From assembly GCA_019753175.1 (NCBI GenBank), contig JAIELK010000027.1, positions 1 through 64,000 on the forward strand: a DNA stretch of 64,000 nt, in the 5' to 3' direction. The position numbers were made by a program, and so were the translations under genes. Shown piece by piece: positions 5,303 through 25,159 of the stretch (the stretch's first letter is position 1; each line of letters begins with the position of its first letter). Source of the stretch: Hyphomonadaceae bacterium. GTDB lineage: Bacteria; Pseudomonadota; Alphaproteobacteria; Caulobacterales; Aquidulcibacteraceae. The notes beneath the pieces were generated by a model. That model was not told the DNA's origin. It saw nothing but the letters and a program-made list of their open reading frames with translations, and searched no databases.

Positions 5303-5335
5303 CGGACTAACCTAATGATTGATGCGCCCGCGAAA

Positions 5336-6646: not shown

Positions 6647-6751
6647 CACGCCAGCCCCCAACATGCCTTCGCGGTTATAATTAACAAACCCCTAACTCTA
6701 ATCTTCCAGCAAAGTTGGTTCGAAGGCAACACAATAACGCTGGTTGCGGCG

Positions 6752-7527: not shown

Positions 7528-8889
7528 ATGGCTTGCTCTGGGGGGGAATTCATTGTGCGAGAGTTTTTAGGGTTGCTTCGCCTTGGACCCGCCTGGGCGT
7601 TGGGGCCTATGGTCATATTGCTTGGGTTGATCCTGCAGGGCGGCGACACGCATGTCTTGAACGCCCTTTTGGCGAGCGCGCTGCTTGCTTGCGCGGCCCT
7701 GGCGGTTGCGTGCGCGCCGTCGCCAGTCTTGCGCGACGTGTTCGCCGTTCAAGGGTTCTCTATTTTTTTGGGCGCGAGCTTTCTTGTTTGGTGCGCATTG
7801 ACCGCGTGGCCGTTGCTGCCTGCGCTGCACGAACGCTTCGCCCATCCCTTGTCCGAATTTTTCCTGTGGCGCGCGCCGGGGGTGTCTTTATCGCCGACAG
7901 AGACGCTGCTTGGCGTGGTGTTCATGATGGCGCCGGGCGCAGCTTTTTTCCTGGGGGCGATGGCATCGGTCGAGCCGCGCGCGCGCGTATGGGGCGTGCG
8001 CGCGCTGGCGCTTGTGGCTCTCATGTTTTCGCTTGTTTCGCTGGGCGATTTCGCGCGGGCAAGCGCTGGACGTCTTGATGCGGGCCTCAGTTCGCCCAAT
8101 GTGGCGGCCGCGCTCTTCGGGGGTTTGGGGCTGTTGTCGCTAAGTGTGGCGCTGCGCGCAGCGCGTCGCTCCAATCCCAACCAGGCGCTGCCGCGCGCGC
8201 TCGGGTTTTTGCAGGGCGTCGTCAGCGCACCCTTTAGTGCGGCCGCTGCCTTCATGGCGTTCATGTGTGTGATGCTGACCGCCTCGCGCGGGGGCGCTTT
8301 GGCAGTCGGCGTTGGCCTTATTGTGTTTGTCGCGGCCTTTGCATTGCGCACATCGTCCCCTTCCAAGAGCGGGTTTTCAATGCCGCGTCTGGTGTTGGGG
8401 CTCGCCCTGCCAATCGTCTTTGTTGTCCTCGCAAGTCTGGACACGCTGCTTACCCGCTTTGGCGAAGGCGAGGCCGCGATTGTCGGGCGTCAGCAATTGC
8501 TGGCAGCCCATCTTGAAACGTTCAGCCAGCGCCCGATTTTGGGACATGGGCTCAACACCTATGACCAACTAAATCTCCTGGCGATGACGCTCGAAAACAT
8601 GGGTCCGCTGCGTCAAGCGGGCGCGGCGCACAATATTTTTGTCCAATCCCTGGAAGAAACCGGGGTCGTCGGATTTGGACTGATTTTTCTGGCGGTGGCC
8701 GCCTGCCTCTTGCGTACACTCGTCAAAGTCTTCACGAGCAACCGCAGCCTTGAGTGGAACGCGGCGCTCCTTGGGATCTCAACCGTCTTCTTGGTCCACG
8801 GCGCCTTTGACTTCGCCTTGCAAGTCCCTGCCGTCGGCGCTCTCTACGCCTATGTCCTTGGTTTGTTGACGCCGAGACCCTGGGACTAA
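7528..8889 (+). CDS. O-antigen ligase/polymerase family membrane protein (Wzy_C)
   Basis: About 453 residues from ATG 7528 (GGTGGGCG in front); the frame is open from a TTG at 7447. Roughly a dozen hydrophobic helices are visible. The Wzy_C signature lies in the large late loop: RQQLLAAH..., ILGHGLNTYDQLN and GAAHNIFVQSLEETGVVG, with the conserved His-Asn. Such proteins polymerise lipid-linked repeat units or ligate them to an acceptor in the periplasm. It is transcribed away from the export genes across a region of about 200 bases that probably holds both promoters. Confidence 0.88.
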   Translation: MACSGGEFIVREFLGLLRLGPAWALGPMVILLGLILQGGDTHVLNALLASALLACAALAVACAPSPVLRDVFAVQGFSIFLGASFLVWCALTAWPLLPALHERFAHPLSEFFLWRAPGVSLSPTETLLGVVFMMAPGAAFFLGAMASVEPRARVWGVRALALVALMFSLVSLGDFARASAGRLDAGLSSPNVAAALFGGLGLLSLSVALRAARRSNPNQALPRALGFLQGVVSAPFSAAAAFMAFMCVMLTASRGGALAVGVGLIVFVAAFALRTSSPSKSGFSMPRLVLGLALPIVFVVLASLDTLLTRFGEGEAAIVGRQQLLAAHLETFSQRPILGHGLNTYDQLNLLAMTLENMGPLRQAGAAHNIFVQSLEETGVVGFGLIFLAVAACLLRTLVKVFTSNRSLEWNAALLGISTVFLVHGAFDFALQVPAVGALYAYVLGLLTPRPWD

Positions 8890-9748: not shown

Positions 9749-10549
9749 CTAATTTCGGGAATGGGGGGCCAACAAAGCCAGCCGGGCTTGCGACCAGCTG
9801 GAGAGGGATGGCCCGGATTGCCGCGAAATCCAAGTATAATCAAGCAGAGCGACGGGTTGCGGCGCATCGCGAAGATTATCTAACACAAAATCACCGCGAT
9901 CGGTGTGCGCCACCACGACCGTGTGCAAACCTCCGCTTTGCAGCTCAGCCACCGCCAGCAGCACGCTTTCGGGCGCCCAACCGGCCGCAAGCAGCCGCTC
10001 GCGTTTTTCGAGCGCATAATCTTCGCAGTCCCCGCGCGCCTGCGCGCGCGTGCCCTGTGTTTCAAGGAGCGGCCTTGACCATCGCTCTGTAACGCCAAAC
10101 TGGTTTATGTCGCTTTCGGCAATGATGGCGCGGTTGACAGCGTCATTGATGTCGTGGAGTTCGCGCCAGCGCTGGCGCGTCAAAGGCTCGTCGCGGCGCG
10201 CGCCGCCCTCGCGGCCAAGTGCAGCGGCGTTGAGCATCATCGTGAAGTTAAGGCTCGCATCAGCGCGTACGCGTCTTGGACCCGAGCGCTGGCTTGCGAC
10301 AGCTGCCGTCTCCCGCGGCCCCTGGCCAACCACAGCGCGCGCGCTCAACACCTCGGCCACCGCGCCGCAGGCGCCTGTGCGCTCGCAATAGTCCAGCAGT
10401 CCGAGCGGCGCCGGCGCCGGCCCGCCCGCCGCCAATATTGCCCTGCTCTCCAGGATAGGCTCGGCGCTTTCAACGCTCACCTCTCCGCGCGCCGAAAGGT
10501 CTGCCGGACCGCCAAATGATACGCAGGCCGAGGTCACCGAACAGGCCAA
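9749..10549 (-). CDS. Bacterial transglutaminase-like cysteine peptidase (BTLCP)
   Basis: About 266 residues. The papain-like triad is readable: Cys 175 in RGDCEDYA, His 209 in GGLHTVVV and Asp 224 in VLDNLRD. BTLCP proteins are periplasmic and in several bacteria process or regulate surface adhesins and polysaccharide systems. The annotated start is a TTG, but the frame continues upstream without ATG, GTG or TTG up to a TAG at 10595, and that extra part reads INKTITLASAALACSVTSAC, a typical lipoprotein signal peptide. Translation may start at the ATC at 10582, or a start codon may have been lost. Function beyond the fold is inferred. Confidence 0.85.
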   Translation of the reverse strand: MACSVTSACVSFGGPADLSARGEVSVESAEPILESRAILAAGGPAPAPLGLLDYCERTGACGAVAEVLSARAVVGQGPRETAAVASQRSGPRRVRADASLNFTMMLNAAALGREGGARRDEPLTRQRWRELHDINDAVNRAIIAESDINQFGVTERWSRPLLETQGTRAQARGDCEDYALEKRERLLAAGWAPESVLLAVAELQSGGLHTVVVAHTDRGDFVLDNLRDAPQPVALLDYTWISRQSGPSLSSWSQARLALLAPHSRN

Positions 10550-12861: not shown

Positions 12862-14214
12862 ATGCGGGGCGAAGCAAACATTTGGCGCACCTGCATCGAT
12901 TTCGGCACCGCCGCTTCCAAGGCCAGCACCTGCTCGGCGTGGGATAAGACCGGCCCGTTATACGCCCACGTCCACCCCTTGCGGTTAGGCGCCATTTGCC
13001 AAGAGCCTAACCCCTATGTCGCGGAATCAGCGCTCTTGTTCGATGCAGGGCGGGTGTTTTTCGGCTGGAACGCTCGAAAGCGCGCCGCTGACCAACCGCC
13101 GGACACCGAAGTTCTGCACTCGTTTAAGACCTTCCTGGCCTCGGCTGATCTCTCCGAAGCCCTGAGCCTCAAACTCAAGCGCACCGTTGACCGCTCCGGG
13201 CGCTTCAGCCAGCGCGACGCGCTCACGCTCTACGTTGCCTATCTGCTGCGCCTCACCGAAAGGGCTATGGCGCTCGATGCCAACCTGCCCAGAGAAGCGA
13301 GCCAAGGGCTGCGCCGATACGCCTACCCAACATGGCGCACCGGTGCGGCAGCCAACACGATGCTCGCAGAAATTTTCGATGTCGCCTCAAGCTTGAGCGA
13401 CACCCTCGGCGAGCAGATGCTCTCGCCGCAAGGCGCTCCCGCCGACGCCGCGCTCGAAGCGCTTCAGCGCGCGCGCCCCTCGCCCGGGCGAGGCCGCATC
13501 GAGGCCGGCGTGTATGAGGCGCAGGCCGCCGCAGAGTGCCATTTTGCTTATACACGCGGCCTGCCCCACCATGTCATCGTGTTCGATATGGGCGCCGGCA
13601 CCACCGACATTACGTCGTTTGAATTTCGAGAGACCCCTGAGGGTCATACGATGCGCGAGATCGCCAACTCTCGTCGCACCATTCTCTTGGCCTGTGACGA
13701 AGTCGACAAGCTTCTGATGAGTTTCATCTTGGATCGCGCCAAGCTCGCCTCCAGCCATGCCAATCGTTTATGGCGGCATTTGGCGTTGCGCCGCCGCCAG
13801 TTGAAAGAAGAACTCTTCGCCCAGGGCGCGACCTCATTCGACTGGGAAAACAAGCGCTACGGCGTGCACCTGAACGATTTCAGACGCGACCAGCACTTCC
13901 AGGCATTCTGCGCCGCCATAGAACAGAACTTCAAATATTGTCTGACGCAAGTCGAGCTGCGGGCGGCTGCGGCTGGACATACGGAAGTGGGGGTCATTCT
14001 CGCGGGCGGGGGCGCAAGTCTGCCCTTCGTGCAGAAAATGGCCATGCGCGCGCGCCCAAGCGCACGCGGGATAAAAAAGCTACTGGTCCAACCCTTGGTG
14101 CCAACCTGGGCAAAGGACCCCTCGTTCAAGCACTTGGCGAACATCTTTCCTCAGGTCTCGATATCGATCGGCGGGGCCGTCGCCCACGTGCATGCCGCGG
14201 ACCTACATTTCTAG
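12862..14214 (+). CDS. Hsp70/actin-superfamily ATPase, paralogue A
   Basis: 450 residues from ATG 12862, which has GGAGG in front; the frame opens at 12802 but that extension looks untranslated. The ATPase core is visible: phosphate-1 CIDFGTAASKAS (about 11-22), phosphate-2 VIVFDMGAGTTDI (about 237-249) and adenosine motif VGVILAGGGASLPFV (about 375-389). There is no room for an Hsp70 substrate-binding domain, so this is a stand-alone nucleotide-binding domain like those of DnaK-related or MreB/FtsA-like proteins. A second copy with the motifs at the same residue positions lies at 18078-19439. The client or polymer is unknown. Confidence 0.82.
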   Translation: MRGEANIWRTCIDFGTAASKASTCSAWDKTGPLYAHVHPLRLGAICQEPNPYVAESALLFDAGRVFFGWNARKRAADQPPDTEVLHSFKTFLASADLSEALSLKLKRTVDRSGRFSQRDALTLYVAYLLRLTERAMALDANLPREASQGLRRYAYPTWRTGAAANTMLAEIFDVASSLSDTLGEQMLSPQGAPADAALEALQRARPSPGRGRIEAGVYEAQAAAECHFAYTRGLPHHVIVFDMGAGTTDITSFEFRETPEGHTMREIANSRRTILLACDEVDKLLMSFILDRAKLASSHANRLWRHLALRRRQLKEELFAQGATSFDWENKRYGVHLNDFRRDQHFQAFCAAIEQNFKYCLTQVELRAAAAGHTEVGVILAGGGASLPFVQKMAMRARPSARGIKKLLVQPLVPTWAKDPSFKHLANIFPQVSISIGGAVAHVHAADLHF

Positions 14215-14435
14215 AACCGCCGCGAGATGAGGAGCGACGTTAGAATACGTCATCAAACCTATCCGCCACACGAGGGTGTCGGGCTGGCTCCAGCGCGGGT
14301 GAGGTCTTTAGGGACCCGGCTGCGCTTTGGGGCCTCGAAGGCGAACGTCGCTTGGATTCCCACTCGAAAGACCGCGTCCCCTCTAGTGTGGGCCTAGCGT
14401 TGTGATGATCGAAGCAATTGGACGTTGTCATTTTA

Positions 14436-14457
14436 CGCCGTGCTTTCAAGCACGGCG
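14436..14457. terminator. Hairpin after the first Hsp70-like gene
   Basis: CGCCGTGCTT at 14436-14445 and AAGCACGGCG at 14448-14457 are perfectly complementary 10-base arms with a two-base centre. A TTTT run lies on its left side, not downstream on the plus strand, so it is not a classical intrinsic terminator; it may be a transcription end or a protein site. Confidence 0.35.
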
Positions 14458-14748
14458 CCTCGTCCGAACGAAAGCGTAATTGTAAGGCGCATAAGCAGGG
14501 CATCTCAGTTCAAGATATACATGATGTCGCTTCTTCGTGTTTAGAGCACATCGCGGAGTTTAGCGCCAAGCTGAGTGTAAAAATTATGTGACACCGCAGG
14601 TTATAAGCGATTACATTTGCCACCAAAGCAAGCAAGTAACGTGTTATTTATCACACTAAAGGAGTTATTTCTTGCCTTTGCACGAGGACGTACAGCGAAT
14701 ACTTGGCGTCTTTGAAGCGAAACTTTAGTGCAACCATAAGATGATAGC

Positions 14749-14762
14749 ATGTAAACTTACAT
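14749..14762. promoter_or_regulatory. Small dyad upstream of the interrupted gene
   Basis: ATGTAA and TTACAT are perfect inverted arms separated by AC, about 75 bases ahead of the interrupted gene. It is short, so chance is possible, but its symmetry and position suit an operator for a helix-turn-helix protein, perhaps the interrupted gene's own product or the Crp-like protein. Confidence 0.25.
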
Positions 14763-14849
14763 CGCCAGGGGAAGAAAGTGCATATTGTCAGTTAAACAAC
14801 GATATTTTACTTGAACTCCTAGTTCTCCGGGCTAGTGATAACTTCGACA

Positions 14850-15017
14850 ATGATTAGCCCCCTTGAAGCGATCGCGGCCCGGCGCGGCGAAATCCGCAAA
14901 GAAATCGAGCGCCTGCAGACAGAAGATCTCGAACTCGTTCGGGCGGAAGAGGTATTGTCGCAGTTCAAAACAACGCGACCGCGCCCCGGCGGGCGTAACT
15001 CGGCCCCGACAATTTTG
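14850..15017 (+). pseudogene. 5' half of a gene split by an insertion sequence
   Basis: From ATG 14850 (a GTG at 14835 is also in frame) the product reads MISPLEAIAARRGEIRKEIE and continues as a short charged coiled coil, then a basic Pro/Arg/Gly linker ending ...SAPTIL at base 15017, exactly where the insertion sequence begins. The frame then runs into the inverted repeat. The missing half is recognisable beyond the element at 16589-16827. Together they would give a protein of about 135-140 residues with a coiled-coil N-terminus and a winged-helix-like C-terminus, probably a DNA-binding protein. The gene is now inactive as one product. Confidence 0.75.
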
Positions 15018-16588
15018 GGCCGAGGCTGTGTAAAAACCGCGAAACAGTTCAAGCTTTCCGCTATGAGGCGGGAGGCTTGCGATGAAGCGGTTCGTGGAAG
15101 GCGTGGCGCGCGATCAGGGCGGGCTGTTTCCGGCGCATCTTGAGGACTTCGTCGACGAAGATAATCCGGTTCGCGTGGTCGACGCCTTCGTGGATAAATT
15201 GGATCTGCGCGCGATCGGCTTCGAGGCGGTGGATCCCAGCGCCACTGGTCGGCCTGGCTATCATCCCGCAGTTTTGTTGAAGCTCTACATTTACGGCTAT
15301 CTCAACGCGGTCCCTTCCAGCCGACGTCTGGAGCGCGAGGCCGGGCGCAATGTCGAGCTGATGTGGCTCACCGAGCGTTTGGCGCCCGATCACAAGACCA
15401 TCGCCGACTTCCGCAAGGATCATGGGGAGGCGATCCAACAAGCCTGTGCGCAATTTGTGATGCTGTGCCGCGAACTGGGTCTGTTTTCGAAAGCGATCGT
15501 CGCCGTCGACGGCAGCAAGTTTAAAGCCGTCAACTCTCGCGACAACAACTTCACTGCGAACAAGGTCGAAAAGCGCATCGAGCAGACCGAGGTCCACATC
15601 GCCCGCTATCTGACGGCGCTGGAGCGCGCCGACCGCCAAGGCGGAGAGATCGCCGAAGAAAAGACACCGCGCTTGAAAGAGAAAATCGAGCGCCTACGCC
15701 AACGGGTCGAGGATTTGCGTGCAATGGGCGAAGCGCTCAAAGCAGCGCCCGGCGGACAAGTCTCGCTGACCGATCCCGATGCGCGCGCTATGTCGAGCCG
15801 CGGCAAGGGGACCGACGTTGTCGGTTACAATGTCCAATTGGCCGTCGATGCCGAGCACTATTTGATCCTCGCGCACGAAGTCACCAACATCGGCAATGAC
15901 CGCGCGCAGCTGGTATCGATGGGCGAAAAGGCGCGCGACGCCAGCGGACACGCATCGATCACTGTGCTGGCCGACCGGGGCTATTACAGCGGCGATCAGA
16001 TCGTTGCCTGCGACGGGACGGGCGTGGAGCCGATTGTGCCCAAGACGGAGACTTCGGGCGGGGCTTTACGCGGACGCTTCACAATTCAGGACTTCATCTA
16101 CGACCACGAGCACGACCGTTACACATGCCCGGCCGGTCAAATCCTGACGCAGGCGAAGAAGCGTTCCACGCGCGGGCCCGACCCCGACTTTGTGCGCTAC
16201 CGAAACCTCGAAGCCTGCGGCGCCTGCGCGCTCAAACCTCGATGCACGGCGGAAAGATTCCAGCAGATCAGGCGATGGAAGCATGACGATGTGCTTGATG
16301 CGATGCAGCAGCGGCTCGAGCGCATGCCGAAAGCCATGACCATCCGTCGGCGAACGGTCGAACATCCTTTCGGGACCATCAAGGCCTGGATGGGCGCGAC
16401 GCACTTCCTCACCAGGACGCTACCCAAGGTGAAAACCGAGATGAGCCTCCAGGTGCTGGCTTACAATTTGAAGCGGATGATGGCGCTCTTCGGTGTCGCT
16501 CCACTGATCAAAGCGATGGCCGCGTGAGCCCCGCGTCATGCGGAAGCTGGAGCGCAAAATCTCAGCGCGTTTTCACACAGCCTCGGCC
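15018..16588 (+). mobile_element. IS1182-family insertion sequence, about 1.57 kb
   Basis: The ends are inverted repeats: GGCCGAGGCTGTGTAAAAAC on the left (from 15018) and its complement, with one mismatch, on the right (GTTTTCACACAGCCTCGGCC ending at 16588). One transposase gene fills the element. No target-site duplication can be seen. The element splits a gene whose halves flank it, so this insertion is direct evidence of past transposition. Borders may be off by one or two bases because the repeat edge is ambiguous. Confidence 0.9.
15082..16527 (+). CDS. IS1182-family DDE transposase
   Basis: 481 residues, complete and apparently intact. The N-terminus (MKRFVEGVARDQGGLFP...LEDFVDEDNPVRVVDAFVD) and the block YHPAVLLKLYIYGYLNAVPSSRRLEREAGRNVELMWL are hallmarks of IS1182/IS5-like transposases. 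The catalytic Asp lies in IVAVDGSKFKAV, a second Asp in VLADRGYYSGDQ, and the C-terminal Glu region is near MTIRRRTVEHPFGTIKAWMG. A cysteine cluster (TCPAG, ACGACALKPRCT) is also typical. GGAGG precedes the ATG at a short distance. Confidence 0.96.
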   Translation: MKRFVEGVARDQGGLFPAHLEDFVDEDNPVRVVDAFVDKLDLRAIGFEAVDPSATGRPGYHPAVLLKLYIYGYLNAVPSSRRLEREAGRNVELMWLTERLAPDHKTIADFRKDHGEAIQQACAQFVMLCRELGLFSKAIVAVDGSKFKAVNSRDNNFTANKVEKRIEQTEVHIARYLTALERADRQGGEIAEEKTPRLKEKIERLRQRVEDLRAMGEALKAAPGGQVSLTDPDARAMSSRGKGTDVVGYNVQLAVDAEHYLILAHEVTNIGNDRAQLVSMGEKARDASGHASITVLADRGYYSGDQIVACDGTGVEPIVPKTETSGGALRGRFTIQDFIYDHEHDRYTCPAGQILTQAKKRSTRGPDPDFVRYRNLEACGACALKPRCTAERFQQIRRWKHDDVLDAMQQRLERMPKAMTIRRRTVEHPFGTIKAWMGATHFLTRTLPKVKTEMSLQVLAYNLKRMMALFGVAPLIKAMAA

Positions 16589-16827
16589 AGAGGCCGCCTA
16601 AGAGCCAACGTGAGCTGGTTCTCGCCACGCTGGCTTCCGCAGCGGATCCCTGGCTGCAGGCCAAAGACATTATCGCAACCGCACGAGCCAAATGGGGCGC
16701 TGAGATCGCAGAAAAGAGTTTGCGTCCCTTGCTGACCGTCATGAAGCGCGAAGGATTGCTCGTTCGCGATGGGCGCTGGGTTGCGCTTCGGGAGCGCGAG
16801 CGCGATGGTAGCCGCATCGCGAGTTGA
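16589..16827 (+). pseudogene. 3' half of the gene split by the insertion sequence
   Basis: Directly after the right inverted repeat a plus-strand frame reads PKSQRELVLATLASAADPWL, then AKDIIATARAKWGAEI..., and ends at TGA 16825-16827. It has a winged-helix look: helix, LQAKDIIATARAKWG, SLRPLLTVMKREGLLVRDGRWV as recognition helix and wing. Rejoining it to the 5' half at 15017 restores one frame if one base of the repeat edge belongs to the gene. It has no start codon or ribosome site of its own. It was probably a small transcriptional regulator. Confidence 0.72.
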
Positions 16828-16910
16828 CGCGTAATGGCGGACTATTCGTCGTAAAAGCGCTGTAATCTCATGGTGTAATCCATCCCGCTACGGAAAAAAT
16901 GTTGCGCCGC

Positions 16911-16944
16911 CCATTATCGCCGACTTGAGGGTCGACGATAATGG
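16911..16944. promoter_or_regulatory. Long dyad upstream of the Crp/Fnr-type regulator gene
   Basis: CCATTATCG at 16911-16919 and CGATAATGG at 16936-16944 are perfect inverted arms; inside them CGAC and GTCG also pair, leaving one mismatch over 14 bases per arm. It lies about 60 bases ahead of the chosen regulator start. A Crp-type autoregulatory site, or an RNA hairpin in the leader, would both fit. Confidence 0.45.
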
Positions 16945-17002
16945 TTGTATCGGGCGCCCTCCCGAGCTAACAATTACTAAATTGTTGGGAGAGTCATTTT
17001 GG

Positions 17003-17797
17003 ATGAGGGGTGAAGGGTCCGCGAACGGTTCAGAAAACCGCGCGTCATCTGGCGAGGGCCCCTCCAGTGCTGGCGAAATGCAGCGTTTTCCGCTTTTCAG
17101 CACTCTCGATGAGCGTGCACTGCAGGCCGTCTTCGATAAATCCCACGCCCTATCGGTTTCACCGACCTCGAGTTTGCAACTGAGATCGCGTGTTGATTCG
17201 CTTTGGTTGGCTTGGAGCGGCGGATATCGTGTGTTTTTTCGCTCCCCGGCTGGGGCCAACATATCCCTTCGACTTCTGAGACCGGGCGAGCATTTCGGCG
17301 AAGTCGATGTTATCATTGGCAAGGCGGATACCAGCTATGGCATCGCGTGTGACGCCGCCGGCGTGCTCCTAAATATTCCTGGCGACAGCTTCAGGGAATT
17401 GCTCGGGTCTTTTGCTGCTCTTCGCGACAACTTACTGCGCGCCCTAGCATGGGCGAACGTGCATAGCGTTGACCGACTTTATACCTATGCCACGCTTGAC
17501 ACGCGTACGCGCCTGTTAGCTGAGATTGTGCGCCTCAGCGTTTACAGCCAGCCTATGAAAGGCGCCGTGCACCTAACGCCTGCGCCGACACACGATGCGT
17601 TGGCAAACTTGATCGGCGCGACGCGCGAAGTTGTAACCCGCCATCTGCGATCCCTCAGCCGGGAGGGGCTTATTCAAAGCCGGCGGGGCGAAATGACAGT
17701 CCTCGACATTGATCGCCTGCGCCAGTTGGTTGAAACCAAATCAGGACCGCTCATGAGTTACCGATACGCTCCGTCCGGCGACATGGGCGCAATTTGA
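17003..17797 (+). CDS. Crp/Fnr-family transcriptional regulator
   Basis: About 264 residues from ATG 17003; the frame opens at 16925, and the first 78 bases lie across the dyad, so the later start is preferred. A cyclic-nucleotide-binding-type beta barrel runs from FPLFSTLDERAL to about 150, with RLLRPGEHFGEVDVI in place of the usual phosphate cassette; the Arg/Ser of a cAMP pocket is not obvious and there are no Fnr iron-sulfur cysteines. A dimer helix follows, then a winged helix with LANLIGATREVVTRHLRSLSREGLI. It sits between the two Hsp70-like ATPases and may control them. The ligand is unknown. Confidence 0.88.
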   Translation: MRGEGSANGSENRASSGEGPSSAGEMQRFPLFSTLDERALQAVFDKSHALSVSPTSSLQLRSRVDSLWLAWSGGYRVFFRSPAGANISLRLLRPGEHFGEVDVIIGKADTSYGIACDAAGVLLNIPGDSFRELLGSFAALRDNLLRALAWANVHSVDRLYTYATLDTRTRLLAEIVRLSVYSQPMKGAVHLTPAPTHDALANLIGATREVVTRHLRSLSREGLIQSRRGEMTVLDIDRLRQLVETKSGPLMSYRYAPSGDMGAI

Positions 17798-17977
17798 AGC
17801 GCTGTTATCCGCCGCTTGCGGCCCGCGCTTGTTTCCAGGCTGTTTGAACAACATTCTATCGAGCCGTCACTGGTTGCGCGAGTTGGTTCGGTCGCGAGAG
17901 TTTAGAATGTTAGTGACAAGCTGCGGCGCGTCTTCTAACATTTTTCGGCGCGCTCATCCGTGCGTCCCCTACCGCGA

Positions 17978-18011
17978 CCGGCTCCGCCTCATCCACGAAA
18001 GGCGGAGCCGG
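17978..18011. terminator. Strong hairpin between the regulator and the convergent Hsp70-like gene
   Basis: CCGGCTCCGCCT at 17978-17989 pairs perfectly with AGGCGGAGCCGG at 18000-18011 around a 10-base loop. It lies between the convergent regulator and ATPase genes, which suits a bidirectional transcription stop, although no U-run follows on either side. Confidence 0.5.
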
Positions 18012-18077
18012 AAGTGGGCGTTTGGGGAGACGCTTCTCACAAGACCGGTCAGCAGCCTGAATTTCAGCGCGTCGCGC

Positions 18078-19439
18078 CTATGGACGAGCCGCCACGGCAG
18101 CGCCGGCGAATCCTCGCGATAGGGCGGCTCCGCAGGCCGGGCTCAGCTGCGCAAATACCGCCGGCAAGGCGCTCGCGCCGGCTAACGCGCCAAACCATTC
18201 GGGGGCTTGCGTGAGATGCTCAACTGCAATTCCAGCAACGCGCCGGGGCAGAGCCCGCACAGCTTTTTGGAGAGCTGGAACATGCGCCCCGCCGCCGGTC
18301 ACCAGCACGCCGACACGCTTGGAACCGCCCTGTCGCGCTTCGTTCGCGAGATCACGAACACAAAGCTCGCAGAGCCGCGCTATTTGGGACACAGCATCAC
18401 GAAAGGCCGGCGCTTGCTCAAGGTCACTGGCTTTGCAGCCAATCTGACGGCCCGCATAGACAATGCTTAGGGATCCCTCTGCGAACAAGCGTTCTTTGAG
18501 GTCACGCACGTCAGCCGAGAGCCGCCGCCAAAGTGTTTGACGCTCAGCCTTTGAGCGCAGCGTTGGCGCGCGCGAGACCAAAAGGTTGAGCAAGGCTGCG
18601 TCAAGATGATCGCCAGCGACGTCGATCGTGCGTCGCAGGTGCCGCACAACTCTGATTTCTCCATCGGCATGTTCTTTGACGAGCCCCGCTACATCGGTCG
18701 TGCCTGCTCCGATGTCGACTATGACCATGCGATCTGGCGTATGCGCGTCATTGAAGTGACACAGAGCCACCGCGCTTGCCTCGTAAATCCCACCGTCGAG
18801 CCTTGGAAAGCGAGGCCCTTCGCGCAGGACTGCAGCAAGGGCTTGCCGCGCCGCCTCGTAAGACAGTCCCGCCTTGTCTCCATATTGATCGCCGAGTTCC
18901 TGATTGACTCCATGGGCCTGCTCAAACAAGGCGACCATCACTTCGTGCGCCGCCGCTACGTGATCAGGCAGCCAACCTGGTCGGCAAAATCGTATTGACG
19001 CGGTCACTCTTTGACGCTCGTCCGAGATGGTCTGCGCTGTCGCCTTTTCGACGAGGCCAAGGAGATAGCCCAGATAGAGCACCAAAAGCTCTCGCACGCG
19101 AAAGATGCGATCCGGGTCAACGCTTGACCGTGGATGATAGTTAAGCGTCTCCTGGTAGCTGTGCGCACCCAGCATCATCTTGAGCGACTGCGCGAGTTCG
19201 CGCCCCTGGTGTCCCTCTTGCGCAAACCGCGCCAACGCCTCCGGTCCAAAGTGCAAACGCTCCCCGTCGAGGAACAAGACCGAGGGAACCCAAAAGGGTT
19301 TGCCCCAGCCGGCGACGTCTCCCAACGCCAGAGGCGCCGCCGACGTCAGACGTCCATCCAAAAACTCGGTTGCAGCCGCCTTTGAGAAGGCAGTGCCAAA
19401 ATCGACGCCGATGGACCAGGAGCGATCACAACCCGCCAT
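18078..19439 (-). CDS. Hsp70/actin-superfamily ATPase, paralogue B
   Basis: 453 residues from ATG 19439. Motifs: phosphate-1 IGVDFGTAFSKAAA near the N-terminus, phosphate-2 MVIVDIGAGTTDVAG at about 237, adenosine motif VGVLVTGGGAHVP at about 374. These positions, the total length and matching blocks such as LVLYLGYLLGLVEKA and GGIYEASAVALCHF show that it is a paralogue of the ATPase at 12862-14214. It too lacks a substrate-binding domain. It is divergent from the twin-arginine peptide gene, with about 150 bases between start codons, so the two may share a control region. The function is unknown. Confidence 0.82.
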   Translation of the reverse strand: MAGCDRSWSIGVDFGTAFSKAAATEFLDGRLTSAAPLALGDVAGWGKPFWVPSVLFLDGERLHFGPEALARFAQEGHQGRELAQSLKMMLGAHSYQETLNYHPRSSVDPDRIFRVRELLVLYLGYLLGLVEKATAQTISDERQRVTASIRFCRPGWLPDHVAAAHEVMVALFEQAHGVNQELGDQYGDKAGLSYEAARQALAAVLREGPRFPRLDGGIYEASAVALCHFNDAHTPDRMVIVDIGAGTTDVAGLVKEHADGEIRVVRHLRRTIDVAGDHLDAALLNLLVSRAPTLRSKAERQTLWRRLSADVRDLKERLFAEGSLSIVYAGRQIGCKASDLEQAPAFRDAVSQIARLCELCVRDLANEARQGGSKRVGVLVTGGGAHVPALQKAVRALPRRVAGIAVEHLTQAPEWFGALAGASALPAVFAQLSPACGAALSRGFAGAAVAARP

Positions 19440-19589
19440 GCACACCCTGCTCTCGCCCCGACGCCCCGCACGCATGCTAATCAAAGCGTCAAATTTGGCG
19501 CAATGCGATCATCCTTCGTAATGCTTAGATTTTCTTGTTGTTCATTATTGCGTTATCACCTAATTGGTTCGCGGCTGTGGAGATCCCCA

Positions 19590-19925
19590 ATGAAGCGAAA
19601 CGGGCCGGGCGACGAAAAGGCGGGTTTGGGCTCACCTTCCCATGAAACCGCAGCGGGTGAGCACGACGAAGAGCGCGCGGCGAAGCGTCGCGACCGGCGC
19701 GCCTTTCTGAAAACCGCGGGCGCCCTCTCGGCGAGCGTACCCCCCGCCATGACATTTTTGCTATCGACAACGCTGAGTTCGCCGGCGATCGCCAAGTCAG
19801 GCAGGCACTCGAGCTCTAGGGGTCATGAGTCGCGCGGTGATCGTGATCGAGACGAAGATGAGCGTGATCGAGACGAAGAGGATCACGATCGAAATGACCA
19901 CGGGAATCGATCGAGACGCCGATGA
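19590..19925 (+). CDS. Small twin-arginine-signal peptide with charged repeat tail (candidate modified peptide)
   Basis: 111 residues from ATG 19590 (GGAG upstream). Residues 1-32 are polar and charged. Then RRDRRAFLKTAGALSASVP is a textbook Tat motif (R-R-x-F-L-K) with hydrophobic core, ending in an AIA-type cleavage site. The exported part is about 43 residues: KSGRHSSSRGHES, then a run of Asp/Arg/Glu/His (GDRDRDEDERDRDEEDHDRN) and a basic end. It contains no cysteine. It is followed after 63 bases by a PqqD-HPrK gene and a nucleotidyltransferase gene, so I infer that it is the substrate of those enzymes. I know of no named family. Confidence 0.72.
   Translation: MKRNGPGDEKAGLGSPSHETAAGEHDEERAAKRRDRRAFLKTAGALSASVPPAMTFLLSTTLSSPAIAKSGRHSSSRGHESRGDRDRDEDERDRDEEDHDRNDHGNRSRRR
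19842..19879 (+). repeat. Short in-frame tandem repeat inside the peptide gene
   Basis: A 21-base unit beginning CGTGATCGAGACGAAGA occurs at 19842 and again at 19863, the second copy matching over 17 bases. It encodes the RDRDEDE / RDRDEED pattern of the tail. GATC is unusually frequent here. The repeat suggests that the charged tail grew by slippage or duplication. Confidence 0.6.
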
Positions 19926-19988
19926 TTAGGCGCTCAGCGTTGGCTCCAAGCGTCGCTTGAAACGATGAATTGATGTCAACGAGGCGTC

Positions 19989-21119
19989 ATGGCGCTTGGT
20001 CGGGACTTCGTATGGCACGTTCGGCGCTTTGTCTTCGCAAGGCACTGCGTTCTGCTTGACCTAGACGACGCGCATGCGCTCTTCTGCGAGCGCCGCCAAA
20101 AACTGCATCGCCTGAATGACGCCGCATACTTCATCTGGGCGGCGCTGCAGAGCGGCGCAAGTGGGGCGGACGCGGTAGACGCGCTGTGCGGGCAAGGCCT
20201 CTCGTCAGACATGGCCCGCGCCTTTGTCGAGCAGGCTGTCTTGGACTGGCTGAAGAGGGGCTTTTTGCGTCCGCTTGACCTCCCCGCTTCGGGCGAGGTC
20301 ACATCACTCTGGTGTCGGCTCCCCGTGGGCGCTGTAAGGCTCATCCTACGCGGACCCTGCGACCACGCGCTCATCGTCAGTCAACTCAATGGCTTTGCAA
20401 ATTGCCCAAGCGAGGATGCGGTGGCTCGTTTCGAAGTCATTGTCGGAAACGACGCTGCGCTCTTCTTGCGCAATGACGAGCCGGTCGGCTTATACGCATG
20501 CAATGAAATATCGCCACAGATAAAGTCAATGTTGGCTGAAGAGGTGGCCGGACGACTTCAAGGGGGGTTTCTAGCCCATGGCGCATTCCTCTCTAAGGGC
20601 GACCATCGCCTCCTCCTGAACGCACCGCCTGGGACTGGCAAAACCACCCTCGCGCTCGCGCTGTCGCTGCAAGGCTTCCGCTATGGCGGCGATGACATCA
20701 TTTATGTCAGCGCTGAAGGCCTTGCACAGGGTCTGTGCTTTTCCGCGGCGGTCAAGCCGAGCGGCTGGCCTTTACTCGAGGGGCGAGTGCCTGGTCTCCA
20801 ATCAGCGCCTATACATACGCGCGGCGACAAACGGCGAGTACGATATGTCTTGCCGCCGCTGCTCGAGAGCGGGGGCTTGGCGGCGATCAATACAGTCATT
20901 CGGCTTGAACGGCACAAAGGCGCAAAGGCGCATGCAGCGCCGCTTTCACCGCTTGAGGCTTTGTGCGCAGTGCTTGAAAGCGGTTGGTCTGGAGAGCATC
21001 GCGCCTCTAGGACATTGATGCTCGGGTTGGCGCAAACACTCGCGCGAGGGAGGCACCACACGCTGGTTTATGACGATCTTGATGAGGCGGTGGCGGTTGT
21101 ACGCGACCTTGTTCGATGA
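19989..21119 (+). CDS. PqqD-HPrK fusion: peptide-recognition domain plus HPr-kinase-like ATPase
   Basis: 376 residues. Residues 15-95 form a PqqD-like winged helix (FCERRQKLHRLNDAAYFIWAAL...FVEQAVLDWLKRGFLRPL), the type of domain that binds leader peptides in RiPP pathways. Residues 195-376 are HPr-kinase/PEPCK-like: HGAFLSKGDHRLLLNAPPG, then the Walker A GTGKTTLALAL and YGGDDIIYV as the Asp-Asp metal site. In several bacteria these two functions are separate neighbouring genes (HPr-rel-A type systems, and kinases of some lasso-peptide clusters); here they are one chain. It overlaps the next gene by four bases. I infer that it phosphorylates the upstream peptide; the target is unproven. Confidence 0.85.
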   Translation: MALGRDFVWHVRRFVFARHCVLLDLDDAHALFCERRQKLHRLNDAAYFIWAALQSGASGADAVDALCGQGLSSDMARAFVEQAVLDWLKRGFLRPLDLPASGEVTSLWCRLPVGAVRLILRGPCDHALIVSQLNGFANCPSEDAVARFEVIVGNDAALFLRNDEPVGLYACNEISPQIKSMLAEEVAGRLQGGFLAHGAFLSKGDHRLLLNAPPGTGKTTLALALSLQGFRYGGDDIIYVSAEGLAQGLCFSAAVKPSGWPLLEGRVPGLQSAPIHTRGDKRRVRYVLPPLLESGGLAAINTVIRLERHKGAKAHAAPLSPLEALCAVLESGWSGEHRASRTLMLGLAQTLARGRHHTLVYDDLDEAVAVVRDLVR

Positions 21120-22096
21120 ACCGGGCGCGAGCGCTGCGAAACCTATCGCTGTGTTTGAAAGGAACGCCCCCGCGGCGCGCTGCTTGGACTGAGCTGGTGG
21201 CTCTGGCGAACGAAGCGCTCATCACCCCGGAACTTTGCAATACCTTGGCAGGCCACGAGGACCTGCAGAGTGATGTCGTCGCATTCTTACGCGACGTGGA
21301 AGCCCGTACGCGTCGCCGGAATGATCGGTTGATCACGGCGATATGCCATGCAACGCAAATTCTGAACGATCAGGGGATAGAACCAATCCTGATGAAGGGC
21401 GCGGCGCTCTGGGCGAGCGGCGGCGCCTTGGCGCATCCGGCACGTGCGCGACTGACAACCGATATTGACCTTCTGGCCCAGGGATCAGATTTTGAGCGTT
21501 CGCTCACGGCCTTAAGCCAGGCGGGCTACCGGGTTCTTGAAGACAATCTGACGAATTGCGACCACCCAGTGGTGGTGCTGGGACGCGAGGGCGATGTCGG
21601 CGCGATCGATCTGCACCGACGCCCGCCAGGGCGCGCTGACGCGCTCGGCGTCGAAGCGCTCATTGAGAACGCGACGCGCGTGAGGTGCGGCAGTGCAACA
21701 GCACTTGTGCCTGCGCTCCATATGCAGCTCTTCATTCTCATCATGCACGATCAGATTCTCGATGCCGGCTTCTGGCGCGGCGCCTTCAATTTACGTCACT
21801 TGATTGACATTGCCGAGATTGTGCGAGGCGCCGATAGTCTGAGCTGGGAGGGACTGATGGAGCTCGCGCGCAGGGCTGGCGCACATCAGGCCGTCTGCGT
21901 TCAGCTTCTGGCGGCGCAGGACATCGCCGGCGCCGTCATTCCCATGCATGTTACAGCACGTTTCAGCGCCCGTTTGCACTACGCGCGTCAACGCCTTCAG
22001 TTTATCAATCCCTGGCTCAACACGGCGCTCAAGCGAATCGGCCTAAACGACCTTGTCTGGCGCGCGCTCTCGCTCCGCCGCTTCCGGACCTCCTAA
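21116..22096 (+). CDS. Nucleotidyltransferase family protein (NTP_transf_5, MNT-fold)
   Basis: 326 residues. The polymerase-beta-type core is visible: ILMKGAALW, then RLTTDIDLL with the Asp-x-Asp metal pair, followed by FERSLTALSQAGYRVLED and GAIDLHRR. The rest is alpha-helical, typical of PF14907 proteins. This family recurs beside PqqD and HPrK-like genes in peptide-modification loci, where it is thought to transfer a nucleotide or a similar group. The start ATG overlaps the stop of the PqqD-HPrK gene (ATGA), which strongly implies joint synthesis. The exact acceptor is unknown. Confidence 0.85.
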   Translation: MNRARALRNLSLCLKGTPPRRAAWTELVALANEALITPELCNTLAGHEDLQSDVVAFLRDVEARTRRRNDRLITAICHATQILNDQGIEPILMKGAALWASGGALAHPARARLTTDIDLLAQGSDFERSLTALSQAGYRVLEDNLTNCDHPVVVLGREGDVGAIDLHRRPPGRADALGVEALIENATRVRCGSATALVPALHMQLFILIMHDQILDAGFWRGAFNLRHLIDIAEIVRGADSLSWEGLMELARRAGAHQAVCVQLLAAQDIAGAVIPMHVTARFSARLHYARQRLQFINPWLNTALKRIGLNDLVWRALSLRRFRTS

Positions 22097-22106
22097 GGCT
22101 CGGGCG

Positions 22107-22139
22107 AAAACAGCGCGGGTGGCGCAAACCGCGCGTTTT
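22107..22139 (+). terminator. Intrinsic-type terminator of the peptide cassette
   Basis: AAAAC-A-GCGCGG at 22107-22118 pairs with CCGCGC-GTTTT at 22129-22139, with a single bulged A and a 10-base loop, ending in TTTT. It begins 11 bases after the nucleotidyltransferase stop, so the cassette has a clear 3' end. Confidence 0.65.
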
Positions 22140-22206
22140 GCCGGATTGACGCACGCACAGCCGCGAAACGGAGGCCTGTCCGTTCCCGCACCGAACCCCA
22201 TCAAGA

Positions 22207-23634
22207 TCAGCACGTGAGGGCGGCTCGCGGGAAACGGAAATCCGCATCGACGCCCGCTGCCTCAAGAATGTAAGCGCTGATCTCCTCCTGCGCTTTACGC
22301 AGCCAAGCCAGATCAGCGGTGAGATAATCGTAACTCACGTCGCCACGGAGACTATGACCCATTAGCAAACGAATAGCGATTTCACTCACATGCGCAGAGG
22401 TCGCGAGCGTGCGATAGGTGTGGCGAAAAACGTGAGGATGAACTCTCGCACCCACGCCCCGTTGCTGCACATAGGCAGCTGGCGGCGTCATGCCGCTAAA
22501 GTCCAGCTTGTCAACATGACGATAAACATCGCCTTGGGCGAAGGTTTTCCCTTTTTTGCGCCGCGGCCCGCGCAAGCTTGGAAAGAGATAGGGATTCTCA
22601 GGCAGCAGAGCGTTCTCTGGCGTTTGTGCAACGAGTAGCGAATACGCGACCTCCGACAAGGGCAATCGCAGGATCTTCGCTTTCGACTTCACGATAAGCG
22701 TCCGCTCTTCATGATTGATGTTAGAGTCCTGCATCGTCAGGACGGCGCCCTCGCGTAAGCCCGTAAGCAAGAATAAAAATGCACCCTTGCGGGCGAGCGG
22801 GCTTTCAAGCGCTTCAATCTCCTTCCACAGCCCCTTGATCTCATTCGTAACAAAGCCGGCTTCGCGCGGCTCGACCTCATTCATGTCGAAGATTTCCGGC
22901 GGCGGCGGGACTCGACCGCGCATGGTTTTATGCGCGCGGTTCCAGACTGCGCGCAGCACCCGCATCTGCGTGTTGGCTTCGGCGGGCGTACGCTCAGTCA
23001 CGTCATAGAAGTGCTTGATGAGCTTTCGGGGGTCATCAGCCAGATCGGCAAGCGGCGTATCTGAGAAGTCTTTCAGGGCAACCTCGATGATGCGCGTGTA
23101 TTCGGATTGCGTCGTGGCGGCTAATGGCTTCTTCTTCTTTTTCGCTTGGGTGCGCGCGGTCTTGTATAGCTCCCACGCGATGTAAAGAGTGATTGGTTTG
23201 TTCGCTTCCACCTGCGCGGGTGTCGGTTCTAGCGATTTAAGATGCGGATCCACGCCAGCCCGAAATTCTTCCTTTTTCGCGGCGGCAGTCGAGCGAGCGT
23301 CTTTGAGAGACATGCCCGATCCGTCGGCCGCCCAGCGCCCGAGCACGACTTCCGCCGACTTGAAGCGGCCATTGGGCTGTTTGATTGAGCCGCCAAACAC
23401 GAACGCCACGCCCTTGCGGCCCCGCTGTATTCGTAAACCGGAAACGGCGCGACGGCCGGTGTCCGGCAACTCGTAATTGGATGTGCCCTCGGGCGGCGGC
23501 GGCAAGCGGCCGAGCAGCGTTTCAGTCATGCCGGCCGCCATTTCTCGGGACGAGACGCGATGCGTCGCAAGATGCGCGGAAACGAGTTCGGATCGCTTCC
23601 GCCGGGCGCTTCGCTTCTCTTTCAACTGCGCCAT
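22207..23634 (-). CDS. Tyrosine recombinase / phage-type integrase
   Basis: 475 residues from ATG 23634 (GGGTGAGA upstream); the frame begins at 23715. The N-terminal arm-binding and SAM-like regions are rich in Lys and Arg. The catalytic domain shows Arg in LLTGLREGAVL, His-x-x-Arg in HVFRHTYRTLA, His in LLMGHSLRGDVS and the nucleophile Tyr in SYDYLTADLAWL. Length and order fit integrases of genomic islands and prophages. It sits about 170 bases from a tRNA-Arg 3' fragment, its probable attachment site. It has no neighbouring phage structural genes, so the element looks like an island, not a prophage. Confidence 0.93.
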   Translation of the reverse strand: MAQLKEKRSARRKRSELVSAHLATHRVSSREMAAGMTETLLGRLPPPPEGTSNYELPDTGRRAVSGLRIQRGRKGVAFVFGGSIKQPNGRFKSAEVVLGRWAADGSGMSLKDARSTAAAKKEEFRAGVDPHLKSLEPTPAQVEANKPITLYIAWELYKTARTQAKKKKKPLAATTQSEYTRIIEVALKDFSDTPLADLADDPRKLIKHFYDVTERTPAEANTQMRVLRAVWNRAHKTMRGRVPPPPEIFDMNEVEPREAGFVTNEIKGLWKEIEALESPLARKGAFLFLLTGLREGAVLTMQDSNINHEERTLIVKSKAKILRLPLSEVAYSLLVAQTPENALLPENPYLFPSLRGPRRKKGKTFAQGDVYRHVDKLDFSGMTPPAAYVQQRGVGARVHPHVFRHTYRTLATSAHVSEIAIRLLMGHSLRGDVSYDYLTADLAWLRKAQEEISAYILEAAGVDADFRFPRAALTC

Positions 23635-23802
23635 TCTCACCCTCAGATTCGCAAATTTCCCAAGAATTTCCCAAGAAAAAAATCCGCGTTTCGCGACAAC
23701 GCTTGATAACGTCATATTACATGCTCTTCGAAAAACGTCTATGTTTTAAAGCATTTGGAACAAGTTGCGCCAACGGGAGACAATCCGCGCGGAGTTGGTT
23801 TT

Positions 23803-23852
23803 GCAGACTACGAATCTGGGGGTCAGGAGTTCGAATCTCTTCGGGCGCGCCA
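23803..23852 (+). other. 3' fragment of tRNA-Arg (ACG), probable attachment site
   Basis: CAGACTACGAATCTG folds as an anticodon arm with ACG in the loop, then comes a variable loop, a T-arm (AGGAG TTCGAAT CTCTT) and CGGGCGCGCCA, the 3' acceptor strand with CCA. The matching 5' half (expected to start GCGCCCG) is absent: upstream sequence does not form a D-arm. A lone 3' tRNA end next to an integrase is the usual mark of site-specific integration. Its plus orientation puts the element on the left side, so the intact tRNA should lie left of this window. Confidence 0.75.
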
Positions 23853-24054
23853 TTTCTTTTCAACGACTTAGGTGCCGTTTTCATCGGCCGTCGTTTTCCA
23901 CAACAATCAGCTAGTACGAAGCTAGTACGAACGCGGTTGTCGCGTTCTGCCCGACCTCTAGGGTTGGTTGAGTGAATCGTGGAGGGTGAACCGGGCAGAT
24001 CAAGAGTACGAAAATTCTGGCTGCCCATCAGGGAGCGTTGGGGAGCAGATCAAC

Positions 24055-24960
24055 GTGGCGACCCGTCGATTATTTGTCTGGGGCGGATTAGGCCTCATTA
24101 CCGGCTGCGCAAGCCGGGACCTGTTAGACGCATCGGGCTTAGTTGGGCGTAGCGACGTCAGTTCAGACTGGCGTCAGTACCCATGCGTTGCGCGTTACAG
24201 ACGCGGCCATATCGAACTCACCTTTGTCGGCGCGCGCCACGATGCTGACGAAAACGGCCAAACTCAGCGGCTTGTTCGAGAAGCATTTGCCGAAGCGCGC
24301 CCGCGCCTGGTGATAGTCGAGGGCTTTTCGAGCAACGATGGCCTCTCACCGGTCGATGCGCTGCGGAATGCGCAACGTGGCGAAAGCGCTTGGGCGAAGG
24401 GCGAGGCAGGCCTTGCTATTCGCCTTGCGGCGGCGGCGCAGACACCTTTCATGGGTGGGGATGCATCGCAAAAGCAGGTCTACGATATACTTCTTGCGCA
24501 AGGCTACACGACCGATGAGTTGTTTGGGGGGCTAGTACTGCGTGCCACTATTCAAAGTTTGACCGCAGGCCAACTAGACTCGCCCGCCGATCCCCGCTTC
24601 ACTCATCTGTTCAACGCTGTGCTGCAGATGGTGCGCTCTGAGCAGAGCCTCGATCTCGACCCGAATTACGGTGTTGAGGATTTCTACGCTTGGCATCACG
24701 CTGCGTTCGGCGTCAGCTTCGCTCATGACGCCGACTTAGTTCGACGCGCCGCGCCCGACACTGAAACGCGCATTGGACGAATGAACATCGCTTGGAACCA
24801 GCCGCGCGACATACATCTCTTCCACACAATTCGAGAGAAGCTGAACGAGTATGGGCGCGTGCTTGTCGTTTTCGGCGGCGGCCACCTTAGTGCGCTGTCC
24901 CCTGCGTTGTCGCAGATGCTCGGACCGCCGACCGGCGCATGTGGTGTCGGTGGCCCATGA
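24055..24960 (+). CDS. TraB/TIKI-like lipoprotein of unknown function
   Basis: About 301 residues from GTG 24055 (GGGAGC in front); the frame is open from 23968, but only this start gives a clean lipoprotein signal, RRLFVWGGLGLITGCAS. The body resembles the TraB/GumN/TIKI-EreA superfamily: ELTFVGARHDADENGQT with Arg-His, RLVIVEGF with the conserved Glu, and VLVVFGGGHLSAL near the end. Those proteins are putative metalloproteases or esterases. The assignment rests on these three blocks only. It is the first gene outside the presumed island boundary. Confidence 0.6.
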   Translation: MATRRLFVWGGLGLITGCASRDLLDASGLVGRSDVSSDWRQYPCVARYRRGHIELTFVGARHDADENGQTQRLVREAFAEARPRLVIVEGFSSNDGLSPVDALRNAQRGESAWAKGEAGLAIRLAAAAQTPFMGGDASQKQVYDILLAQGYTTDELFGGLVLRATIQSLTAGQLDSPADPRFTHLFNAVLQMVRSEQSLDLDPNYGVEDFYAWHHAAFGVSFAHDADLVRRAAPDTETRIGRMNIAWNQPRDIHLFHTIREKLNEYGRVLVVFGGGHLSALSPALSQMLGPPTGACGVGGP

Positions 24961-25159
24961 GGATGCCGCGTCTTGGGGGACTGTCCTGCAAGATGCCCCG
25001 CAGTTTGGCATGAGCTGAAAGGGGGAGCCATTGGCTGAGCTTTTTCGGCAGGAGGCACTGCAACACGCATCCAGGCGGCTGGACGGAACGGTGATGATCG
25101 CGCTGCCAGCGCCGGTCCGTTGGAGCGCACTCTTGCTGGCGCAAGCGCGCTCGCCGCGT

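Follow-up and report, generated by a model that had tools for sequence, protein, structure and literature searches.

A cassette of three adjoining genes from a Hyphomonadaceae bacterium (assembly GCA_019753175.1, contig JAIELK010000027.1) is described here; the window, i.e., the whole stretch of DNA analysed, comprises positions 1 to 64,000 of the forward strand of this contig. The cassette encodes a small peptide with a twin-arginine translocation (Tat) signal, a protein in which a recognition element of ribosomally synthesized and post-translationally modified peptide (RiPP) pathways, the RiPP recognition element (RRE), is fused to an HPr-kinase-like domain, and an NTP_transf_5 nucleotidyltransferase (NTase). 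An earlier note, made from the letters of the window, had drawn attention to this trio, which is confirmed as real, conserved, and coherent and goes beyond chance, because this leader is repeatedly found in company with these two enzymes. We regard it as probable that the trio is a minimal RiPP-like cassette, in which the Tat signal doubles as the RRE leader and one serine of the peptide, Ser70, is phosphorylated and elaborated before the peptide is exported. The features of the cassette are as follows.

19590..19925, +, putative precursor peptide gene: 111 residues, with a charged n-region, a Tat-type leader, and a charged low-complexity tail
19695..19793, +, leader from R36 to A68, RRAFLKTAGALSASVPPAMTFLLSTTLSSPAIA: twin arginine, PP at residues 51-52, and AxA at 66-68 (from the alignment and column counts)
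19797..19799, +, codon of Ser70, at +2 after the AxA site (AIA/KSG): proposed phospho-acceptor
19838..19879, +, 21-nt tandem repeat in the tail, encoding an Asp/Arg/Glu-rich heptad
19989..21119, +, RRE-HPr-kinase fusion gene: 376 residues
20022..20264, +, RRE (PqqD-like winged-helix) domain, residues 12-92: profile matches to TbiB1, TfuB1, PbaB1, and LppB; fold TMt 0.85
20541..21110, +, HPr-kinase-like domain, residues 185-374: H197 and Walker A PGTGKTT (214-220)
21116..22096, +, NTP_transf_5 NTase gene: 326 residues, ATGA overlap with the fusion gene

Domain identity and recurrence of the gene set

Profile and fold comparisons agree on the fusion protein and settle its predicted architecture, i.e., an RRE of the lasso B1 type at the N terminus and an HPr-kinase-like domain at the C terminus, which bears out the leader-binding PqqD-type domain fused to an HPr-kinase-like ATPase of the earlier note. 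Residues 12-92 match the lasso RREs TbiB1 (E = 2.7e-9) and TfuB1 (4e-9) and, more weakly, PbaB1 (4e-4) and LppB (0.011), and residues 175-249 match HPr kinases (best E 9e-7). The AlphaFold2 (AF2) model of the fusion, obtained from 13 sequences (predicted local distance difference test, pLDDT, 84; predicted template modelling score, pTM, 0.82), can be superposed on the HPrK/PEPCK fold and, with TMt 0.85, on TbiB1-leader complexes. Across 19 fusions, four kinase residues never vary (H197, the Walker lysine K218, D235, and K256), and R285 hardly does. Family annotation of the single gene is weak (Pfam PqqD, PF05402, E = 1.4e-4 over residues 21-92; NCBIfam HprK_rel_A, TIGR04352, E = 7e-12 over residues 185-374), and domain identity is taken from the profile and fold comparisons. 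The third protein matches NTP_transf_5 (PF14907) with E = 4.3e-26 and passes the gathering cut-off (92.4 versus 31.2 bits), and its gene overlaps the fusion gene by ATGA at 21116, as the earlier note had read it. Its residues K94-G95, R112, D116, and D118 are invariant in 10 alignment rows, and its model (pLDDT 80) resembles the nucleotidyltransferases ANT(2'')-Ia (E 4.6e-4) and LnuA (E 2.8e-3); comparison of its profile with PDB sequences gave no match at E up to 1. The terminator that the note had placed behind this gene found no support: a simple terminator scan lists none after the NTase gene, and the hairpin at 22097-22152 has no folding advantage over shuffled sequences (z -0.75).

Loci related to the cassette were drawn from genomes of the order, plasmid records, named genomes, and genomes of the class and phylum. 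Used as a single query, the kinase sequence found the fusion in 3 of 299 genomes of the order. The fusion gene of the cassette is the sole copy found in the source genome. Of 28 kinase matches in the plasmid records, 17 had a coverage of at least 80%, and 11 of the 28 matched records were examined. A seven-row kinase alignment (A1) was too variable for the collection scan and a three-row alignment (A4) was used instead, which gave 9 loci in the named genomes, including 3 full fusions. Among 385 genomes of the class, a profile scan gave kinase matches in 54 and the fusion in at least 10, contig-split cases included. Altogether, 30 fusion loci were inspected.

A match to the leader hidden Markov model (HMM; E<0.01) lies 0.1-1.5 kb from the kinase in 28 of the 30 fusion loci, a count that includes weak or truncated matches at L007 (2.6e-3), L056 (1.5e-3), and L055 (1e-4). 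The model was trained on 12 of the 30 loci; among the 18 held-out loci, 16 were positive, and the figure is 12 of 14 for those ascertained by the kinase alone. The NTase gene lies within 3 kb of the kinase in 27 of the 30, the misses being L055 and L119, near contig ends, and L056. Conserved adjacency in other genomes, which the earlier note had suggested looking for, is observed, and an enzyme pair lying mostly without a small peptide gene, which would have spoken against the reading of the note, is not what the loci show. The link was also recovered from the opposite direction: when 299 genomes of the phylum were searched with the leader profile alone, 6 matched, every one from this class. 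Four of the 6 were new, and each of these four encodes the full fusion (E<1e-70) at 0.14-1.1 kb from a leader. In three of the four new genomes the leader matches more than once (four, five, and two times), and the additional copies are mostly more distant. Among the 385 genomes of the class, leader matches at E up to 1e-3 occur in 14, of which 9 are below 1e-9 and 7 of these carry the fusion, five of the 9 having contributed rows to the profile; three matches near 1e-3 look like chance.

Whether such linkage merely records co-inheritance bears on the interpretation of the whole set. The peptide might be an ordinary small Tat substrate, with the enzymes acting elsewhere, on HPr of the phosphotransferase system (PTS) or a polysaccharide precursor, and the three genes travelling together on islands and plasmids. 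The cassettes do occur on plasmids and on a low-GC island, and some peptides have no linked kinase (G411 and G419). In the window, the GC content is 0.57-0.61 at 13-25 kb, and the flanks of this stretch, out to 8 and 34 kb, have about 0.62-0.69. An insertion sequence at 15018-16588 has a DDE transposase (15082-16527) and 20-bp terminal inverted repeats, and a tyrosine integrase (22207-23715, reverse strand) lies beside the trio within the lower-GC stretch of 13000-25000; no tRNA was found in the window. The cassette is probably mobile, because of the low-GC stretch, the insertion sequence, the integrase, and the relatives on plasmids. Co-inheritance is nevertheless considered a decidedly unlikely explanation: against it stand the linkage in 28 of 30 loci and in all four genomes of the reverse search, the membership of the RRE in a peptide-leader-binding family, and the persistence of the set despite variation in gene order and orientation among loci whose examined flanking genes differ. 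At 12 loci with 100 flanking proteins, none of the 25 commonest of 115 families had more than two matches, and no further conserved neighbour emerged from them. On the reverse strand at 18078-19484, an MreB/Hsp70-like ATPase gene adjoins the peptide gene divergently, and a Peptidase_C93 protein (bacterial transglutaminase-like cysteine proteinase) is encoded at 9749-10549 (reverse strand).

The leader, the conserved serine, and the tail

The 111-residue peptide has the hallmarks of a Tat substrate, i.e., an RRxFLK motif (RRAFLK at residues 36-41, as the earlier note had seen), a hydrophobic region, and AxA; an in-frame ATG upstream of its start, at 19503, would extend it to 140 residues. TatC is encoded on contig C2 of the source genome, and the two signal peptidase I (S26) genes found there lie on contigs other than that of the window. 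The consensus of the leader family is RRxFLxxxGKFAxxxPPAxTxLLSTSLSSxAIAxS, and over 12 alignment rows R36, R37, L40, G44, P52, A66, A68, and S70 are invariant. In 25 in-register peptides, RR, G+8, P+16, and S+34 are invariant, AxA is nearly so, and the 35 residues involved contain no indel. The spacing from RR to Ser is 34 in 25 of 26 peptides, a column count that omits eight divergent or cut peptides (L006, L007, G664, G529, G608, G376, G589, and the third G655 copy). Serine stands at +2 after AxA in all 25 in-register peptides and in all 12 later-found peptides without frameshift; the profile that recovered the latter includes the Ser column itself, and among them a frameshifted copy is excluded and L174, which has a degenerate RR end, is included. 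Outside the counts, G664 and the third G655 copy retain this serine, G608 is cut by the contig end, and the Phenylobacterium leader is shorter and has the serine at +2. In our judgement, an indel-free leader would be unusual for a plain Tat signal; it fits a leader that must position one residue in an active site. The stretch HSSSRGHES, which the earlier note had taken as the phospho-acceptor, gives way to Ser70 as the likelier candidate, because the former is lacking in the aligned relatives and the latter is kept in 25 of 25 in-register relatives.

Behind the serine, the tails diverge into acidic/basic repeats (window), Lys/Arg-rich stretches (Leisingera), Gly-rich stretches, or the core motif GNNGxGNGxxDGxPG, which is common to at least 12 aligned peptides. 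This motif was considered as a general secretion tag and rejected; it occurs in 4 of 240 genomes of the class, and it goes with the leader peptides because every occurrence lies within a leader open reading frame (ORF). Separately, the precursor cores at L183:9497-9754 and L185:8731-9063 close with a stretch that contains Trp and may be amphipathic (PNWLERFLDWLF and PNWLERLLDWLF), and L120 (G376, contig C61) encodes, in tandem, three peptides that contain Cys, have a related leader, and lack the +2 serine.

We propose that one segment serves as both the Tat signal and the RRE-binding leader. Discrete lasso RREs mostly bind [Y/W]xxPx[L/V/I/A/F/Y], and in LppB Asn33 fixes a kink at the proline and Asp70 holds the tyrosine hydroxyl (PMC13381572). 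Leaders of the fusion family keep the proline and the hydrophobic residue of this motif, and the Tyr position is mostly V/A/L/I/T. LppB Asn33 aligns with Asn43 and LppB Asp70 with Phe79 of the window protein, in a weak alignment (E 0.007) with an inferred numbering offset, from which both sides of the Tyr-Asp contact may have changed together in the fusion family. The literal [YW]xxPx[LVIAFY] was found inside the hydrophobic region in 13 of 22 Tat-type peptides tied to other such kinases, whereas shuffled hydrophobic regions have it in a mean of 0.5 of 22 (maximum 5 in 2000 trials). The 22 peptides comprise 18 from distant kinases of the class together with L007 (a divergent fusion), L012, L013, and L017, two of the Phycisphaerae type being among them, and the motif is split into 9 of the 18 and 4 of these 4. 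The peptides were chosen by eye with chance-looking ORFs dropped; those of L014-L016, near-copies of L013, are not among them, and the 18 include paralogues. The rule used for cleavage sites gave no site in 2 of the 22 rows and a misplaced one in about three; Ser/Thr at +2 occurs in 11 of 20 of these peptides versus 4-7 of 18-20 at other positions, which is suggestive only.

A proposed route from precursor to surface peptide

In the proposed pathway, the 111-residue peptide would be the precursor and its leader would act as Tat signal peptide and as ligand of the kinase-fused RRE. The RRE would grip a proline-centred stretch of the hydrophobic region in the cytoplasm, as a redox enzyme maturation protein (REMP) chaperone does a Tat signal, so that Ser70 is positioned in the HPr-kinase active site and the precursor is retained until phosphorylated. 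The NTase would then attach a group, possibly a nucleoside monophosphate (NMP) or a sugar, to the phosphoserine, after which the Tat system would export the finished peptide and signal peptidase I would cut after AIA. The mature peptide would carry the modified serine beside its new N-terminus, followed by a variable charged or Gly-rich tail. The order of these steps is drawn by analogy with linear polyphosphorylated peptides (LPPs) and pseudomycoidin. The earlier interpretation, in which the kinase phosphorylates serines of the peptide and the NTase adds a further group before Tat export, is partly supported as a whole. If the proposal is correct, sets of HprK-related, PqqD, and NTP_transf_5 genes gain a substrate with a named residue, and the reading of a Tat signal peptide by an RRE would provide a simple coupling of peptide modification to export quality control.

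Several observations weigh against the proposal. The Tyr/Trp of the known RRE motif is absent from the leader, and three family models score below their cut-offs on the peptide or the fusion: Pfam TAT_signal reaches only E 0.019 on the window peptide, below the cut-off, PqqD scores 22.5 bits, just under the 23.4 gathering cut-off, and HprK_rel_A scores 45 bits, far below 200. The serine is not universal; eight divergent peptides fall outside its count, G376 and G589 do not have it at +2, its position is shifted in L006, L007, and G529, and a frameshifted extra copy in G870 (L186:9157-9409) has Thr at this position. There is no single shared core either, since GNNGxGNGxxDGxPG, present in many peptides, is absent from the window peptide. 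Peptide and kinase are also found apart: of the two fusion loci without a near leader, G655 has three peptides about 50 kb and 2 Mb from the kinase, and G376 has its kinase on a contig of only 6.7 kb and its weaker peptides on other contigs; in the class scan, G376 accordingly shows a fusion together with weak leader matches elsewhere. G411 and G419 have strong leader matches (<1e-9) with only remote HprK-like matches and no fusion detected, and G589 (83% complete) has weak leader matches and no fusion. Finally, the 30 loci are not independent events and the counts overstate independence, because several are close relatives (L005/L153, L004/L008, L010/L011, L156/L157, and L183/L185), and the correlation between kinase and leader distances (Mantel r 0.56, p 2e-4, 13 pairs, one unlinked), which is otherwise in favour of the proposal, may reflect no more than species relatedness.

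The same RRE-leader contact could serve a different end. The RRE-kinase might function chiefly in Tat chaperoning, controlling the export of a structural surface peptide, and the phosphate would then be a temporary licence mark, later removed or without importance; the REMPs offer a precedent for Tat-signal binding, and one fusion apparently serves several precursors, partly in trans (G655, G677, G854, and G870). We judge this unlikely, because a mere gate would not need the NTase that lies within 3 kb in 27 of the 30 fusion loci. Conversely, the serine may be modified further than the proposed pathway requires, as a site of glycan attachment, so that the cell surface would carry a conjugate of peptide and polysaccharide joined through phosphoserine. 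This extension of the preferred explanation draws on PsmN, which puts hexoses on phosphoserine in pseudomycoidin (PMC9266682), and on the location of LPP loci within capsule clusters (PMC13381572). Moreover, an exopolysaccharide cluster lies in the window at 2111-8889, about 11 kb from the trio (Bac_transf sugar transferase, Wzz/AAA_31, BBP2_2 beta-barrel porin, Poly_export, and a Wzy_C-domain protein), and polysaccharide-type genes stand near the cassettes of two Leisingera plasmids, one Parasedimentitalea plasmid, and G127. Most other cassettes examined have unrelated neighbours, however, and the NTase model is like nucleotidyltransferases rather than glycosyltransferases; the conjugate is considered unlikely.

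A lasso peptide pathway was also weighed, in which the cyclase and B2 protease would act in trans from a separate lasso-like locus of the source genome. On contig C24 (L189, 1153-6974), such a locus contains an ABC transporter and a Transglut_core3 protein that adjoins an asparagine-synthase-like protein. Lasso rings require an N-terminal Gly/Ala/Ser/Cys and an Asp/Glu at positions 7-9, and the residues after AxA (KSGRHSSSRGHE) lack a suitable combination. Neither a macrolactam cyclase nor a B2 protease, nor any other lasso enzyme, was found among 19 scanned neighbour proteins encoded between 0.2 and 28.4 kb of the window (ORFs under about 180 residues and the 28-64 kb region being outside the scan); the statement of the earlier note that no lasso cyclase or radical SAM enzyme lies nearby holds for these neighbours. 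A lasso pathway in trans is highly improbable.

The proposed pathway may belong to a wider group. In 53 wide loci, a filter of our own, which admits some chance ORFs on either side and missed at least two true leaders, gave 40 small Tat-type ORFs in 308 kb within 2.5 kb of a kinase versus 8 in 489 kb elsewhere. The leader model itself gave no match at E<0.01 around 29 more distant kinases of the class but did match, if less strongly (about 1e-6), next to the kinases in 4 of 5 Phycisphaerae-type loci, where RRE and kinase are separate genes. From the ORF enrichment and the aromatic motif in the linked peptides, HprK-related kinases appear to be linked to Tat-type peptides in general, with the fusion family as one branch. 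A broader claim, to which we give somewhat less than an even chance, is that of a new class general to the HprK-related kinases of Alphaproteobacteria and Phycisphaerae: one segment would be both Tat signal and RRE leader, the modifying complex and the translocon would compete for the same hydrophobic stretch and thereby couple phosphorylation of the +2 Ser to export, one kinase would serve several precursors in cis and in trans, and the surface would be decorated with phospho- or phosphoglyco-peptides. As further observations on these relatives, L013-L016 are cassettes in which RRE and kinase are separate and every precursor stops, without a tail, at ...KALAASPSS. Three of these cassettes come from Phycisphaerae; L015, very similar in its set, is titled as an alphaproteobacterial metagenome-assembled genome and may be misbinned. 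At L078 (G529, 5988-8279), a 764-residue ORF joins NTase-like and HprK-like parts in one protein.

Comparison with known systems

Searches of the mainly openly accessible literature returned no paper with 'HprK-related kinase', 'HPr-rel-A', 'NTP_transf_5', or 'PF14907', and none combining RiPP, twin-arginine, precursor peptide, and signal peptide, which is not proof of absence. HPr-rel-A (TIGR04352) is related through the kinase domain (E 7e-12), and its distant members often lie beside an NTase (16 of 29 loci of the class) and Tat-type peptides; by contrast, the fusion scores 45 against the cut-off of 200, the leader families differ, and the entry name mentions no substrate. The REMPs likewise differ from the fusion, in which the RRE is joined to a peptide kinase, since they act in cofactor loading and have a fold distinct from that of the RRE. 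The likeness lies in the cytoplasmic binding of the Tat signal on an immature precursor, as described for NapD, TorD, and DmsD and here proposed for the RRE; TorD and DmsD bind through the hydrophobic part of the signal (PMC3712460, PMC3316669). In the main texts of two RRE-mining papers, the word kinase is absent (PMC7470986, PMC12710340). Paeninodin and pseudomycoidin share an HprK-like kinase and a nucleotidyltransferase acting on a precursor serine; PsmN acts on phosphoserine, hexoses being the observed adduct and an indirect route being possible, and the acceptor is C-terminal (PMC9266682), whereas the acceptor proposed here lies near the leader and there is no lasso core.

The closest likeness in enzymes is to the LPPs, RiPPs described in 2026 and stated to be restricted to Bacillota, whose loci encode an HprK-like kinase, an RRE, and an NTP transferase; the kinase LppK phosphorylates core Ser3 beside a signal-peptidase-like cleavage site, and the NTP transferase had no activity in a heterologous host (PMC13381572). 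The window cassette likewise has an HprK-like kinase, a lasso B1-type RRE with no macrolactam cyclase in the set, an NTP transferase, a conserved leader with a variable tail, a patchy distribution, a proposed acceptor Ser near a signal-peptidase-type cleavage site (S3 in LPPs and +2 here), and, in some members only, polysaccharide loci as neighbours. The LPP RRE is a discrete protein, whereas here it is fused to the kinase, and the LPP leader motif YxxPxVLxHQxIxFETxxS is replaced by a Tat-type signal without the YxxP Tyr. Furthermore, neither a SipW-like peptidase nor an MsbA-like exporter was found among the 19 scanned neighbours. The remark of the earlier note that no described system has this exact set is thus untenable for the enzymes, known from LPPs, and stands for the Tat leader, the RRE-kinase fusion, the lineage, and the lack of a dedicated peptidase or exporter seen near the trio. 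With cassettes in Alphaproteobacteria and kindred sets in Phycisphaerae, the proposed pathway, if correct, would extend LPP-type phosphopeptides outside Bacillota.

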